Of a stretch of 5,498 nt of DNA, positions 1,176-4,977 are shown in pieces. The stretch's first letter is position 1, and each line of letters begins with the position of its first letter. The stretch spans positions 1 to 5,498 of the forward strand of contig JAOUFX010000262.1 in NCBI GenBank assembly GCA_029857975.1. Reading direction: 5' to 3'. The DNA comes from Deltaproteobacteria bacterium (GTDB lineage: Bacteria; Desulfobacterota; SM23-61). The notes under the pieces were generated by a model that worked only from the letters and a program-made list of their open reading frames with translations, was not told the origin of the DNA and did no database searches. A program made the translations under genes and the position numbers.

Positions 1176-1204
1176 TTGACATCATGAATTATTTTTCATA
1201 GATT
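1176..1204 (+). promoter_or_regulatory. Sigma70-like promoter for the barrel-protein unit
   Basis: A perfect -35 TTGACA (1176-1181) is followed by a 17-base spacer and -10 TAGATT (1199-1204; four of six consensus bases). The predicted start is near 1211. Transcripts would carry a leader of about 365 bases containing two tandem copies of the repeated leader element before the gene at 1576. The distance from the -10 to the element (about 50 bases) is close to that at the second promoter (2292-2320, about 43 bases). Confidence 0.6.
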
Positions 1205-1254: not shown

Positions 1255-1344
1255 TGACCTTCTGGGGCCTAAAATGAGAAGGTGGGGTTACCAAAAGATG
1301 GTTATGTGAAACCTCCAAAGGGCTTATCAAAATCCTTTGGAGGT
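1255..1344 (+). ncRNA. Repeated leader RNA element, divergent copy 1 of 3
   Basis: This aligns with the elements at 1401-1507 and 2363-2465: TGACCTT, CTGGGG, then an 11-codon ORF (1274-1309), then a hairpin just after the stop. The hairpin is a perfect 11-bp stem, ACCTCCAAAGG (1311-1321) with CCTTTGGAGGT (1334-1344). Relative to the other copies, two stem pairs changed together: G-C to C-G and G-C to A-U. This copy has no T-run after the hairpin, so it is not an intrinsic terminator. A second possible stem, ACCTTCT (1257-1263) with AGAAGGT (1277-1283), would enclose the ORF start. The function is unknown; homology to the other two copies rests on ordered matches and the paired changes. Confidence 0.6.
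1274..1309 (+). CDS. Candidate leader peptide MRRWGYQKMVM
   Basis: An 11-codon ORF ending in TGA one base before a strong hairpin. A G-rich stretch (GGGG, 1264-1267) precedes the ATG by six bases and may serve as a weak ribosome site. Aligned with the other two micro-ORFs it keeps W, an aromatic residue and Q-K in frame (W-G-Y-Q-K against W-V-F-Q-K). Q uses CAA here and CAG there, a synonymous difference, and the overall length differs by exactly one codon. This pattern suggests coding selection, but three short sequences cannot prove it. Confidence 0.4.
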   Translation: MRRWGYQKMVM

Positions 1345-1427
1345 GCCTTCCCGCTTCGTCCTTTTCAAACCAGGCGTTTTAACTTTATAGCCTTACTTAT
1401 CTTACCCTTAAAGCTTTTGGGGGATTT

Positions 1428-1460
1428 ATGAAATGGGTTTTCCAGAAGGATCCAATATGA
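1428..1460 (+). CDS. Candidate leader peptide MKWVFQKDPI
   Basis: A 10-codon ORF with GGGGG (1419-1423) four bases before the ATG as a possible ribosome site. Its TGA (1458-1460) overlaps the first base of the terminator hairpin. A ribosome terminating here would cover the 5' arm of that hairpin (1460-1468). Near-identical to the ORF at 2388-2420, with a single Pro/Leu difference. Confidence 0.45.
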   Translation: MKWVFQKDPI

Positions 1461-1507
1461 AGGCTCCATAGGGATTCAGATTTTCCCTTTGGAGCCTTTT
1501 TTCTTTC
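1460..1507 (+). terminator. Attenuator-type hairpin upstream of the barrel gene
   Basis: The stem AAGGCTCCA (1460-1468) with TGGAGCCTT (1490-1498) is extended past one mismatch by AGGGA (1470-1474) with TCCCT (1484-1488). A T-rich tail (TTTTTTCTTT) follows. It lies after the promoter and before the gene, so it would act as an attenuator rather than as the end of a transcription unit. Confidence 0.65.
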
Positions 1508-1575
1508 AGTTTCTCTATTTATCCCTTCTTTATAAAACCCACTAAATCTTCAAAACTAAAAGGGAGAAAACGATC

Positions 1576-2082
1576 ATGGTTACAATAAAGTCAAAATGGA
1601 TTCTCTTCGGCATTTTGGTGATCTCGGCCTGGGTTCTTGGTTCTGCCGTTCAGGCAGGAGCAGAGACCCTGAAGTTCAAGGTCTACAGCTATGAGACTAA
1701 AGCAGAAAGCGTCCCAGTTGACGATGTGGAAGGACACACTTTGAATATTAGAACTCGAAGGGCTTTTTGTATATTGGAAAATGGGGAGGTTGCGACTCAA
1801 AGCGCAGTTATGTTAGGTGATTTTATCAAACAATCTGGTTCAAGCATCGCGTACACAACCATCACCTTCTCAGATGGTTCTTCTATTATTTCGAAGGCGC
1901 AAGGTTCGATAGGTCCATCGGCACAAAGAGGGACACGGGAAATCATCAAAGGAACAGGCCGATTCGAAGGGATCAAGGGAACTGGAACCGGTGCCTCCAA
2001 GTTTCTTCCAGTCGAAAAAGGCGAAGCCGGGCCAAAAGCAATCGGTGAACTCATTCTAACCTATACCCTCCCTCCCAAATGA
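1576..2082 (+). CDS. Exported small beta-barrel-like protein (lipocalin/allene-oxide-cyclase-like)
   Basis: A 168-aa secreted or periplasmic protein of unknown function. Residues 1 to about 27-29 are a Sec signal peptide (K5, K7, hydrophobic WILFGILVISAWVLG, then V-Q-A-G-A). The mature part alternates short beta strands and turns and ends with a Gly-rich segment G-T-G-R-F-E-G-I-K-G-T-G (about 126-137) and a final strand ELILTYTLP. A G-x-G-x-F-x-G-I-x-G motif with a C-terminal strand is typical of allene-oxide-cyclase/dirigent-like and related eight-stranded barrels; this assignment is by pattern only. There is one cysteine (in RRAFCILENG), so no internal disulfide. The start is supported by AGGGAG (1561-1566) nine bases upstream. 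A promoter, two leader elements and an attenuator precede it, and a terminator follows, so it is probably monocistronic. Confidence 0.85.
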   Translation: MVTIKSKWILFGILVISAWVLGSAVQAGAETLKFKVYSYETKAESVPVDDVEGHTLNIRTRRAFCILENGEVATQSAVMLGDFIKQSGSSIAYTTITFSDGSSIISKAQGSIGPSAQRGTREIIKGTGRFEGIKGTGTGASKFLPVEKGEAGPKAIGELILTYTLPPK

Positions 2083-2109
2083 TCTTTGAGGTTAGGGGTA
2101 AGAGCAAAA

Positions 2110-2141
2110 GAAAAACCCAGGTTGAATGGCCTGGGCTTTTC
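2110..2141 (+). terminator. Intrinsic terminator of the barrel gene
   Basis: Stem CCCAGG (2116-2121) with CCTGGG (2130-2135), 8-base loop. It is flanked by GAAAA (2110-2114) and TTTTC (2137-2141), which extend the stem past an A/C mismatch. The hairpin begins 27-33 bases after the stop codon at 2082. The A-run on one side and T-run on the other could allow use from both directions. Confidence 0.75.
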
Positions 2142-2291
2142 ATTGGGTGGGAATAGGCAGCCCTTGCGTTATCTGCTATGTTAGTGGAAAATTTGAAGCC
2201 CCAAAAAGCTGCGATATACAAACCATTCATGGCAATAATGCGGCCAATTTGGTAAGCTCCGTTACTGGCACGTACTCCGTTATTTTTCCAA
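2142..2291. other. Spacer between terminator and acylase promoter
   Basis: A 62-codon plus ORF (2126-2314) overlaps the terminator hairpin, lacks a ribosome site and ends inside the promoter, so it is judged spurious. The octamer CTCCGTTA occurs twice about 20 bases apart near 2256 and 2275. AGCCC at about 2159-2163 could pair with GGGCT of the upstream terminator. Nothing else was recognised. Confidence 0.45.
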
Positions 2292-2320
2292 TTGACCCGA
2301 ATTTGGAATTTTGATATTTT
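2292..2320 (+). promoter_or_regulatory. Sigma70-like promoter for the acylase unit
   Basis: -35 TTGACC (2292-2297; five of six), 17-base spacer, -10 TATTTT (2315-2320; four of six). The predicted start is near 2327, giving a leader of about 265 bases that contains the repeated leader element. Arrangement and distances mirror the promoter at 1176-1204. Confidence 0.5.
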
Positions 2321-2387
2321 GGCACCGTCATTGTCCTAACCGTAAATGACCAAGCTAACAACTTGACCTTGAACTTCTGGGGGATTT

Positions 2388-2420
2388 ATGAAATGGGTTT
2401 TCCAGAAGGATCTAATATGA
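2388..2420 (+). CDS. Candidate leader peptide MKWVFQKDLI
   Basis: A 10-codon ORF with GGGGG (2379-2383) four bases upstream. Its TGA (2418-2420) overlaps the first base of the downstream hairpin. It differs from the 1428-1460 ORF by one base, changing Pro9 to Leu. Whether it is translated cannot be seen from the sequence. Confidence 0.45.
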   Translation: MKWVFQKDLI

Positions 2421-2465
2421 AGGCTCCAGGAGGATTCTTTTTTCCTTTGGAGCCTTTTCTTTTTT
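2420..2465 (+). terminator. Attenuator-type hairpin upstream of the acylase gene
   Basis: Stem AAGGCTCCA (2420-2428) with TGGAGCCTT (2448-2456), extended after a small bulge by AGGA (2431-2434) with TCCT (2443-2446). The tail is TTTTCTTTTTT (2455-2465). It lies between promoter and gene, so full-length acylase mRNA requires readthrough. Confidence 0.65.
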
Positions 2466-2592
2466 CGTCCTGAAGACTTCAATCACTCAGAAGAGTTCAA
2501 GAGAAACGGTTTTAAATTCGTCTTTTATTAAACAGGCATTTTCTTTCGGATTACATTGATTACTTATCCTTAGATAAACATTAAGGAGATAG

Positions 2593-4977
2593 ATGATGAA
2601 AAAATGGGTGGCAATTATCGGCATCATATTGTTAGGGCTCATCGTAGTAGCCTTAGGCGGAGGTTATGTTTGGTTCCAGTATGCAATCAAGAAGAGTCTA
2701 CCAAAAATGTCAGGCGAGGTCGTTGTGAGTGGCTTGAAAGAAGATGTAGAAATCATCAGAGATACGTATGGAGTACCCCATATCTACGCTAAAAATGAGC
2801 CGGACCTTTTTTTCGCGCTAGGTTATGCCATGGCTCAGGATCGTCTGTGGCAAATGGAATTTACCCGTCGTCTGGGGCATGGCCGGCTATCAGAGGTTTT
2901 GGGCAAGGATCTCGCAAAAGTCGACCGTTTCTTTCGGATGCTTGCATCTGGAGGCATGAACAAAAAAATTCCTGAAGATCTTGCTTTTGTTTCCAGGTCC
3001 TTTGCCGATGGGGTAAATGCTTTTTTAGAGGCCCATCCTGATCGCCTGCCTTTTGAGTTCACACTTCTGGGTTATAAGCCAGAACCATGGGACCCCGAGG
3101 ATTCTTTCGCTATTATGAGAGTGGTTAATTGGAGTGGAAGTATGGGCTGGAGAGTGGACCTAATGTCCAGGAAGATGATTGAAAAAGTGGGAACCGAAAA
3201 AATGAAGGAGGCGTTCCCGATCTGGCCGGAAGATGCCCCATTGATTATCGCCGAAGAAGGCAAAGACCTTTCCAAAATCACACACTCTTTTTTTGAAACA
3301 ATGCGTTTTGCGGAAAGCTTAACAGGGTCATTGGTTGGCTCCGCCAGTAATAACTGGGTGATCTCTGGCGAGAAATCCATCACAGGCAGACCAATCCTTG
3401 CGAACGACCCTCACCTTGCACTTACCAACCCCTCTTTTTGGTGGGAGGTCCATATGGTCTGTCCAACCATCAATGTGTCTGGGTTCGCTGTCCCAGGAGT
3501 AGGGGTTGCGGTCGGTCACAATCTTCACGTAGCTTGGGGAGTCACCTATGCCATGGTGGATGATGTAGATTTTTATATCGAGAAGATCAATCCTGATAAT
3601 CCCCGGCAGTACTGGTACAAGGACCACTGGGAGGAAATGCGGGTAAGAAAGGAGATCATTCGAGTTAAGGGTCAGGATCCCGTCAAAACCGAGATCCTTT
3701 TGACCCGTCAAGGACCGATTGTTAGCGACGCAAAGGAGTCAAAGGAAACGGCCATTGCCGCAAAATGGGCGGGCACCGATGGCCTTCAGCCATTTCAAGC
3801 AAGCTATCTCTTAGCAAAAGCTAAGGATATGCAAGGGGTCAAGGAAGCATTACGGTACTGGGAGTTACCGGGCCTGAACTTTGTCTTTGCAGATGATAAT
3901 GGCAACATCGGATACTGGTACTGCGCAACGATTCCCATACGAACAAAAGGGGATGGGATTTTACCGATGCCGGGTTGGAGCGGTGAGTACGAATGGAAGG
4001 GATATGTTCCTTTCGAAGAAAGGCCACATGTGATAAACCCCAAGGAAGGGTTTATCGCCACGGCCAACAGCAAAGTTGTGAGCGATGATTATCCATATTT
4101 GATCAGTCATTACTGGGAGCCTACAGACCGAATAGTTCGCATTCGCCAACTTCTTAAGGCCAAAGAGAAATTTTCCGTTGATGACTTTAAGCGGATGCAG
4201 GAGGACATTTACAGCGAGCTTGCTTCTGAAATTATTCCCCAAATGATCCAGGTCCTTGAAGGTAGATTTTTTGATGAAGATGCCAAGAAGGCCAAAGATA
4301 TCTTGACCAAGTGGGATTTCATCATGGATAGAGATAGTGTCGGGGCTTGTCTGTTTGAGGTGAATTTTCGGAAGATGCTGGACAATATCTTTAAGGATGA
4401 ATTAGGGGAAGAACTCTTCAAGGATTATTTAAAAACGTCAATATTTCCTCCACGTGCTATTCAGATGATATTTAAGAAAGGTTCATCTCTCTGGTTTGGT
4501 AAAAGGACCTTGGAGGAAATCATGGCCCTAAGCCTGAAGCAGACTTTCTTGGAATTAAGAGAAGTCATGAGAAGCGATATCAATAAATGGACTTGGGGGG
4601 AATTACATTCTCTCACTTTTGAACATGTATTAGGCCCCAAGAAGCCTTTGTCTTGGATATTCAACCTCGGGCCATTTCCGGTGGGGGGAAGCAAGCTAAC
4701 CATCAATATGAGGCATTACCCTTATGACAAACCCTTTCACACAAACCTCGGGGTCTCCATGCGGATGATCGTTGATTTATCTAATCCCGGAGGTTCATTT
4801 CGTGTGCTTCCGACAGGGGAATCCGGACACATCGGAAGCCCCCATCATAAGGACCAGATCGAACTCTATCTCAGCGGCAAATACCGATTAGAATCGATCA
4901 ATCGTTTTGAAGTGGAGAAGAACAGTGAATCTGTTATGATTTTAAAAACAAAATTTAGTTCAAAGGGGGGCAAATAA
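2593..4977 (+). CDS. Penicillin-acylase-family (S45) Ntn hydrolase, membrane-anchored or exported
   Basis: A 794-aa amide hydrolase precursor, normal length for the family. Residues about 5-28 are one hydrophobic segment after M-K-K (signal anchor or signal peptide), so it acts outside the cytoplasmic membrane. The alpha region contains the family motifs GVPHIYA, GYAMAQDRLWQME and a Gly-Arg-Leu-x-Glu turn (about 60-105). Autocleavage is expected between A251 and S252; S252-N-N-W starts the beta chain and Ser is the nucleophile. H274 (N-D-P-H) is at beta position 23, His as in cephalosporin/AHL-type acylases, where penicillin G acylase has Gln. T318 to D326 with D323, D324 and D326 resembles the oxyanion/calcium region. 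N492 (T-A-N) counts to beta 241, the catalytic Asn, and R513 aligns with the conserved Arg. The C-terminal TGESGHIGSPHHKDQ is typical. The substrate cannot be read; acyl-homoserine lactones, beta-lactams or lipopeptides are options. AAGGAG (2583-2588) is seven bases before the second ATG (2596), which may be the true start. Confidence 0.95.
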   Translation: MMKKWVAIIGIILLGLIVVALGGGYVWFQYAIKKSLPKMSGEVVVSGLKEDVEIIRDTYGVPHIYAKNEPDLFFALGYAMAQDRLWQMEFTRRLGHGRLSEVLGKDLAKVDRFFRMLASGGMNKKIPEDLAFVSRSFADGVNAFLEAHPDRLPFEFTLLGYKPEPWDPEDSFAIMRVVNWSGSMGWRVDLMSRKMIEKVGTEKMKEAFPIWPEDAPLIIAEEGKDLSKITHSFFETMRFAESLTGSLVGSASNNWVISGEKSITGRPILANDPHLALTNPSFWWEVHMVCPTINVSGFAVPGVGVAVGHNLHVAWGVTYAMVDDVDFYIEKINPDNPRQYWYKDHWEEMRVRKEIIRVKGQDPVKTEILLTRQGPIVSDAKESKETAIAAKWAGTDGLQPFQASYLLAKAKDMQGVKEALRYWELPGLNFVFADDNGNIGYWYCATIPIRTKGDGILPMPGWSGEYEWKGYVPFEERPHVINPKEGFIATANSKVVSDDYPYLISHYWEPTDRIVRIRQLLKAKEKFSVDDFKRMQEDIYSELASEIIPQMIQVLEGRFFDEDAKKAKDILTKWDFIMDRDSVGACLFEVNFRKMLDNIFKDELGEELFKDYLKTSIFPPRAIQMIFKKGSSLWFGKRTLEEIMALSLKQTFLELREVMRSDINKWTWGELHSLTFEHVLGPKKPLSWIFNLGPFPVGGSKLTINMRHYPYDKPFHTNLGVSMRMIVDLSNPGGSFRVLPTGESGHIGSPHHKDQIELYLSGKYRLESINRFEVEKNSESVMILKTKFSSKGGK

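Follow-up and report, generated by a model that had tools for sequence, protein, structure and literature searches.

Leader elements in the window

The stretch analyzed here, called the window in the following, comprises 5,498 nucleotides (nt) of contig JAOUFX010000262.1 from a Deltaproteobacteria bacterium, and it carries three related elements, all on the plus strand and placed ahead of two genes. In every copy, a G-rich Shine-Dalgarno (SD) sequence is followed by a short open reading frame (ORF) that ends at the base of a second hairpin, called P2; in copies 2 and 3 the SD sequence is paired within a first hairpin, called P1. The elements, the promoter-like sites ahead of them and the two genes behind them are listed below with their coordinates in the window.

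1176 to 1204, plus strand: sigma-70-like promoter TTGACA-17-TAGATT ahead of copy 1 (10 of 12 consensus matches)
1257 to 1283, plus strand: 5' hairpin of copy 1, ACCTTCT/AGAAGGT, with the SD sequence and ATG in its loop (fold)
1274 to 1309, plus strand: leader ORF of copy 1, MRRWGYQKMVM and stop (pattern match; 22-copy alignment)
1311 to 1344, plus strand: hairpin P2 of copy 1, immediately 3' of the stop codon, without a U-tract, tail CCTTCCCGC (fold)
1414 to 1448, plus strand: hairpin P1 of copy 2, core CTTTTGG/CCAGAAG, pairing the SD sequence (fold; mean unpaired probability of the SD sequence 0.01)
1428 to 1460, plus strand: leader ORF of copy 2, MKWVFQKDPI and stop (pattern match; alignment of 107 copies)
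1460 to 1507, plus strand: hairpin P2 of copy 2 with T-rich tail TTTTCTTTC, a probable intrinsic terminator (fold)
1576 to 2082, plus strand: gene behind copies 1 and 2, a secreted-looking protein of 168 amino acids (aa) (ORF and family searches)
2292 to 2320, plus strand: promoter-like site TTGACC-17-TATTTT ahead of copy 3 (9 of 12 matches)
2374 to 2408, plus strand: hairpin P1 of copy 3, core CTTCTGG/CCAGAAG, pairing the SD sequence (fold; mean unpaired probability of the SD sequence 0.00)
2388 to 2420, plus strand: leader ORF of copy 3, MKWVFQKDLI and stop (pattern match; alignment of 107 copies)
2420 to 2466, plus strand: hairpin P2 of copy 3 with T-rich tail TCTTTTTTC, a probable intrinsic terminator (fold)
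2593 to 4977, plus strand: gene behind copy 3, a penicillin-amidase-family protein of 794 aa (Pfam PF01804, E 7e-223)

A preliminary description of this DNA had already proposed three related plus-strand copies ahead of two genes, and this was borne out by a shared-codon pattern, which matched the window exactly three times, at the three copies, against 0.04 matches expected. Our recount also gave the same 50 of 51 identical bases for copies 2 and 3 (1418-1468 and 2378-2428), the sole difference being C1453 versus T2413. These bases belong to a 64-nt repeat of 92% identity (1414-1477 and 2374-2437) whose starts are 960 bp apart, and copy 1 is more diverged. All three stretches folded more stably than shuffled sequences, with z values of -2.3 for positions 1255-1350, -3.2 for the copy 2 stretch and -4.0 for the copy 3 stretch. 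P2 of copy 2 is a 15-nt inverted repeat of 93% complementarity; a simple terminator scan of the window, with a loop limit of 8, did not have it in its output.

Copy 1 has its SD sequence in a loop (mean unpaired probability 0.84), unlike the P1-paired SD sequences of copies 2 and 3. Since its hairpin is followed by CCTTCCCGC instead of a T run, copy 1 is probably no terminator, and transcripts should end at copies 2 and 3 alone. By eye, a GTGCCTTCC-like stretch replaces the T's behind P2 in copy 1 (window 1311-1375) and in several MRRWG-type relatives; the GGAGG of the P2 3' arm could alternatively pair with the CUUCC of this stretch, after which an additional small hairpin may come.

The preliminary description placed each copy between a promoter and a gene. 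For copies 1 and 3 a promoter-like match does precede the element, but the promoter scan of the window scored none in the interval from copy 1 to copy 2, and these two copies may therefore form one tandem leader. Promoter-like matches in the window are no rarer in shuffled sequences (8 found, 8.6 expected).

Related elements in other genomes

The named relatives are metagenome-assembled genomes (MAGs), with titles that mention Lac Pavin sediment samples, groundwater and a deep-cast water sample. A pattern of SD sequence plus ORF, run over all genome contigs, was found in four stretches from three MAGs titled Deltaproteobacteria bacterium, and a looser pattern gave 15 matches in these three genomes against none for the reversed control. 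In the class of one relative (G003), six of the eight genomes had pattern matches, with one reversed-control match, and matches were obtained from 16 of 395 genomes of the phylum, among which only those of G237 and G258 look true by their flanks outside the class. Pattern matches that were coding or without the hairpin were set aside by eye (L008 from the looser search, L023, L025, L027, L028, L030-L033, L038 and L039), and the truncated L002/L011 was excluded from the early alignments A1 and A2.

A search of related genomes with a covariance model, which the preliminary description had recommended, succeeded. A 22-copy model hit all 10 of the related genomes searched, with 4 to 31 matches in each at E <= 0.1, the weakest including some antisense matches to the palindromic P2. 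These ten genomes, which are the eight of the class of G003 together with G237 and G258, make up the first set, for which 128 copies were fetched (4 to 27 per genome); 104 of 117 usable copies were aligned after removal of 13 gappy ones by eye. A second model, built from 107 copies, had matches in 41 of the 395 phylum genomes at E <= 0.001, where stricter filters and a scoring of 8 candidates per genome make the copy numbers lower bounds. Some of these matches lie on long contigs, such as one of 2.07 Mb in G393. The second set was taken from 21 other genomes and contains 64 of 70 listed places, the last batch of 6 being omitted. Two main forms of the leader peptide are present among the 107 copies: one has Trp at codon 3 in the short numbering (45 of 107), and the other is typically MKRSFRKVPI-like.

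The preliminary description had recognized no known riboswitch class in the element, and the searches agree with this. Rfam gave no family at gathering score for the window searched at E up to 1 (lowest E-value 0.54), nor any match at gathering score for 20 fetched relative loci, and a full-text literature search returned no title or abstract describing such a leader in deltaproteobacteria. One pattern tried against viral contigs gave no match, and phage origin was dropped as a candidate.

Conserved hairpins

Over 107 copies, 80% of the cells of the P1 core and 87% of those of P2 are paired, and two further outer P1 pairs reach 67%. Changes on both sides of a pair were seen for 5 of 7 P1 core pairs and 13 of 14 P2 pairs. 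The whole-structure covariation score of 0.304 (0.232, standard deviation (sd) 0.007, in shuffles) was above all 500 shuffles and every slid version of the structure, and so were the numbers of paired cells and of cells with both sides changed. Taken alone, the count of pairs showing a both-side change was reached in 65 of 500 shuffles, and kinship among copies can inflate such tests. For the 64 copies of the second set the score was 0.340 against 0.227 (sd 0.009), again above all 500 shuffles and every slid control, in an alignment that was fitted to the covariance model and hence leans towards it.

When the stop codon and the 9 nt behind it were masked, as they would be by a ribosome, most of P2 was lost: in 81 copies the mean folding energy of this region went from -22.5 to -8.1 kcal/mol, and in copies 2 and 3 to about -6. 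A canonical antiterminator between P1 and P2 was looked for by eye and rejected, with only 4-5 bp that are not common to all copies.

Coding selection on the leader ORF

A start codon is present in 103 of 107 aligned copies. For changes between near neighbors at codons 2-10, the mean BLOSUM score was 1.19 against a null of 0.23 (sd 0.12), stops arose twice where 33 were expected, and the synonymous share was 0.308 against 0.228 (sd 0.019); under a stricter column-permutation null the synonymous share alone was not significant (0.132) and the BLOSUM score still was. The second set gave the same picture, with a mean BLOSUM score of 1.04 against 0.26 (sd 0.14), no stops against 16 expected, a synonymous share of 0.374 against 0.256 (sd 0.025), and 44 of 54 copies in the standard register. 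Judged from these codon comparisons, the ORF of 10-11 codons, which runs from the P1 loop to the P2 base, is a frame under coding selection in two separate sets.

The frame is also tied to P2. An in-frame stop ends within -5 to +3 nt of P2 in 64 of 107 copies (2 and 6 in the other frames) and within -5 to +16 in 68 (2 and 17), and in a typical copy P2 begins 0-4 nt behind the stop. Since the stop is less constant than the frame, selection seems to preserve the ability of a ribosome to get from the SD sequence to P2. Two longer frames were seen. Readthrough copies L141, L162, L175 and L188 (from G001, G003 and G004) have a common frame of 49-53 codons through P2, which holds ...SSLDNNKTIRAP (or KTLRAP) near its end, and L097 (638-783) has a longer 16-codon leader, MKSWVFPRWGYQKMIL and stop, seemingly with the start of a second motif.

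This coding signal bears on two other explanations. One is a ligand-binding riboswitch or protein-binding RNA in which the ORF is incidental. The covarying two-hairpin structure, a near-constant T at the third position of codon 4 and the absence of a match to a known family would suit it; the strength of the coding signal in two sets, together with a consensus structure, as used here, of just two simple stems, makes us consider it improbable.

The other is a sensor by nascent-peptide arrest, in which the conserved peptide itself, (K/R)-(W/R)-x-(F/Y)-(Q/R)-K-x-P-I, would make the ribosome stall at its stop codon or close to it upon a small molecule or stress, and only the stalled ribosome would prevent P2. 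It would be a special case of a translation-coupled attenuator. Conservation is at the amino-acid level outside the helices: Lys at codon 7 is written AAG or AAA, codon 5 is mostly Phe or Tyr, Pro at codon 9 uses all third bases in the 62 copies without Trp (CCA 19, CCC 19, CCG 14, CCT 4), and Trp occupies codon 3 in the other 45. There is a precedent in TnaC, a short leader peptide which, according to parts of PMC8429421, senses Trp through termination arrest. Pro stands at codon 9 in only 23 of the 45 Trp copies, the last residue and the stop vary among copies, and many copies have no stop there, and we regard arrest on the peptide as rather unlikely. Trp-codon attenuation was rejected, as there is a single Trp, absent at that codon in 62 of 107 copies, and so was the sensing of rare codons, as AGA, AGG, CGG and ATA occur at 9-12 per thousand in the downstream genes and are not strikingly rare.

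Promoters and downstream genes

Among 115 copies of the first set with flanking sequence, 50 promoter-like sites have their -10 element at -80 to -61 from the leader start, compared with 3.2 in shuffled sequences. The next gene, as given by a simple longest-ORF caller rather than a gene finder, is co-directional at 105 of 119 places in the first set (9 more places have no downstream ORF) and at 56 of 62 in the second (2 without a downstream ORF), where the median distance is 84 nt. Judging from these positions, the element is located between a promoter and the next gene. The proposal in the preliminary description of a conserved, structured and functional leader RNA agrees with covariation in two sets, co-directional genes and a promoter at fixed distance; it requires amendment in that the leader is not purely non-coding, with its ORF being under selection.

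A transcript running from the promoter to P2 would be about 130 nt long and contain an ORF, which would be consistent with independent small-RNA or micropeptide genes having their own promoter and terminator. We hold this to be very improbable, in view of the same-strand next gene in both sets and its short distance in the second.

The downstream genes are diverse. A total of 109 Pfam families was found among 96 downstream proteins (94 of 99, after removal of 5 chance-looking ORFs, and 2 from the window), and the largest family, Guanylate_cyc, has 6, which speaks further against a riboswitch or protein-binding RNA. With this diversity the element is not tied to envelope genes, as it had seemed from the window alone, and what remains of such a tie is a moderate excess of N-terminal hydrophobic cores by a rough heuristic (45 of 89 downstream versus 64 of 205 other genes; Fisher p 0.002). 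When 103 downstream proteins were clustered, 73 clusters were obtained, 14 of which span at least two genomes with some members only distantly alike.

Dispersal over so many genes may also be explained by a self-copying dispersed repeat or an exapted mobile terminator (a 'mobile attenuator') without sensing function. Up to 27 fetched copies per genome, the two near-identical copies 960 bp apart in the window, and some copies without a start or a nearby stop are in its favor. It does not account for the fixed-distance promoter, strand bias, covariation and coding selection; the 14 clusters carrying the element in at least two genomes also stand against it, as does a survey of 86 upstream proteins (700 nt upstream fetched), where the 25 commonest Pfam families, out of 76, include no transposase. 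We thus consider such a repeat doubtful in a high degree, and the more specific candidate of an insertion sequence (IS) remnant found no support in the same upstream survey.

Four further same-strand pairs of copies lie within 400 nt of each other. The MRRWG form is always first, the spacings are 152, 152, 225 and 226 (154 in the window), and no U run accompanies the first P2 in the window pair or in two of these four. In a fifth pair (G007:C96) the first copy has no start codon. In the window, the part of first module in such a tandem seems to fall to copy 1.

A probable translation-coupled attenuator

Taking together the ORF and its selection, the covariation of P1 and P2, and the positions of promoter and leader, all obtained by comparison of sequences, we think it probable that each element is transcribed as 5' leader of the gene behind it and serves there for translation-coupled attenuation of transcription. 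The transcript would start about 60 nt before the tiny ORF, and P1 (CUUCUGG with CCRGAAG) would enclose or pair the SD sequence and the start codon of the 10-11 codon ORF. When no ribosome loads, P1 would stay closed and the ORF unread, P2 would form, and RNA polymerase would stop. A ribosome reading the ORF would open P1 and reach the stop codon at the P2 base, or run into P2, and by covering the 5' arm of P2 it would allow polymerase to continue into the gene. Translation on would thus mean gene on, with P1 possibly serving as an initiation gate. Because the elements are spread over diverse genes, the signal is probably a general one, which may be the capacity for initiation or the stalling of ribosomes on the conserved peptide. 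Of the three copies in the window, the second and third fit this attenuator model.

Sections of PMC4824070 report for E. coli that termination fell from about 90% to under 10% when the distance from a stop codon to the terminator behind it was shortened from 28 to 5 bp, and our elements look built to use such repression of a terminator by the ribosome.

Several points weigh against translation-coupled attenuation. The same sections of PMC4824070 state that, without a pause of the polymerase, a ribosome is unlikely to catch up with it in the first 100 bp. A T-rich tail, defined as 5 or more T among the 9 nt that follow P2, is present in 122 of 174 copies and absent in copy 1, and the promoter peak of the second set is weaker, with a site at -90 to -56 in 15 of 56 copies. 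For counts of stops against P2, a start codon and at least 10 of 12 P2 pairs were required (120 of 128 copies in the first set, 54 of 64 in the second). In only about half of them, 66 of 120 and 31 of 54, does the stop codon begin within -8 to +12 of the P2 start (control frames, same interval: 8 and 15 of 120; 1 and 8 of 54), and the frame closes only past P2 in 42 of 120 and 22 of 54. The stop is at codon 11 in only 74 of 153 copies. Where it is lost, a compensating stop at codon 14, inside P2, seemed real by eye and was dropped because the difference was not significant (13 of 79 versus 6 of 74, p 0.14). The model that retrieved the first set had itself been seeded with copies picked for a TGA stop. 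At codon 4, the third base is mostly T while the first two vary, a non-coding pattern, so RNA constraints act beside coding. Lastly, linkage to the penicillin-amidase gene was not conserved in seven of ten relative loci, those scanned being L263-L266 and L269-L271 (L267, L268 and L272 lay outside the scan), and the sole element there is convergent.

Comparison with known systems

In the ampC-type attenuator of E. coli the ribosome directly blocks an intrinsic terminator, and to our knowledge ampC-type and pyrBI-type attenuators are each known from one operon. Our elements differ from both in that one leader family stands ahead of many genes, with a conserved peptide and with P1 at the start site. 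They resemble the pyrBI-type attenuator of E. coli, as presented in sections of PMC4824070, in that a ribosome on a leader ORF abutting or containing the terminator would prevent the hairpin.

A short leader ORF followed by an intrinsic terminator, here a probable one, is shared with the trp, his, leu and thr leaders. Unlike these amino-acid attenuators, our leader has no run of control codons and no Rfam leader match, and in the typical copy P2 starts within the few nt behind the stop given above, where the corresponding distance in those attenuators is >20 bp in sections of PMC4824070. A matching biosynthetic operon was found neither in the window genes nor among the 25 commonest of the 109 downstream Pfam families.

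TnaC of tnaCAB, likewise a short leader peptide, has 24 residues, lies ahead of tryptophanase and acts through Rho-dependent termination. The present leaders differ in having 10-11 residues, a hairpin with a T tail in most copies, and other genes behind them; tryptophanase is not among the window genes or the 25 commonest downstream families.

The presence of one attenuator sequence ahead of several non-homologous genes recalls the mobile attenuators and attenuator regulons of PMC2965389, of which the portions concerned give IS or prophage 3' terminators, BIMEs and riboswitches as examples; unlike these examples, the present family has a conserved ORF with a promoter and P1. The upstream ORF (uORF) toiL and other antibiotic-sensing uORFs sense translation stress via ribosome position, as the present leaders may do; toiL differs, according to parts of PMC12121999, in acting on a single toxin-antitoxin transcript, through its translation and its Rho-dependent termination.

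Genes and other features of the window

No Pfam, NCBIfam or PDB-sequence match was obtained for the 168-aa protein; it may resemble the allene-oxide-cyclase-like barrels, a likeness that no search supports. Relatives of it occur in 5 of 10 genomes. The element is upstream in G004 and G258; in G001 and G008 it sits at the 3' end and precedes the gene that follows, and no element was found at the two places of G007. A hairpin at 2110-2141, after the 168-aa gene, has terminator-like matches on both strands. The only NCBIfam match of the 794-aa protein, far below cut-off, is to PvdQ acylase. In L264 (348-473), as an exception to the leader rule, a copy faces the 3' end of a relative of this penicillin-amidase-family gene on the other strand.

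Elsewhere in the window, a thioredoxin-like protein (AhpC-TSA or ResA type) is encoded on the minus strand at 333-863, and a 102-aa ORF at 5171-5479 matches only the C-terminal part of DUF4410 (profile 57-120 of 120) and is possibly a truncated gene. The sequence at 947-980, where a T run accompanies a perfect inverted repeat of 15 bp (loop of 4 bases), is probably a terminator. A second repeat pair, GCAATAACCC...GGTGTCAAAAT(A)GGGTCATGGTTTTTGAGGGGG, at 269-330 and 961-1025 is unrelated to the leader, and its core pattern had no exact match in 10 related genomes.

Meaning of the family

The elements are a real family outside Rfam, probably one of leader-ORF attenuators, and are notable for their reuse ahead of many genes. 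More tentatively, and with less than even confidence, we suggest that one 10-residue leader peptide with P1 and P2 may run a regulon of up to about 27 genes per genome in this deltaproteobacterial lineage, reading one global translation variable (initiation capacity, or arrest on the peptide) and turning transcription on when the ribosome directly covers a terminator beginning at the stop codon.

Most known leader-peptide attenuators are devices that respond to what their own operon produces. If one leader peptide is indeed reused before dozens of genes, this would be a ribosome-controlled regulon at the level of transcription without a transcription factor, and the tandem copies would then make a two-input switch. 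About 170 natural variants (174 counted) are available for learning which residues and distances matter.

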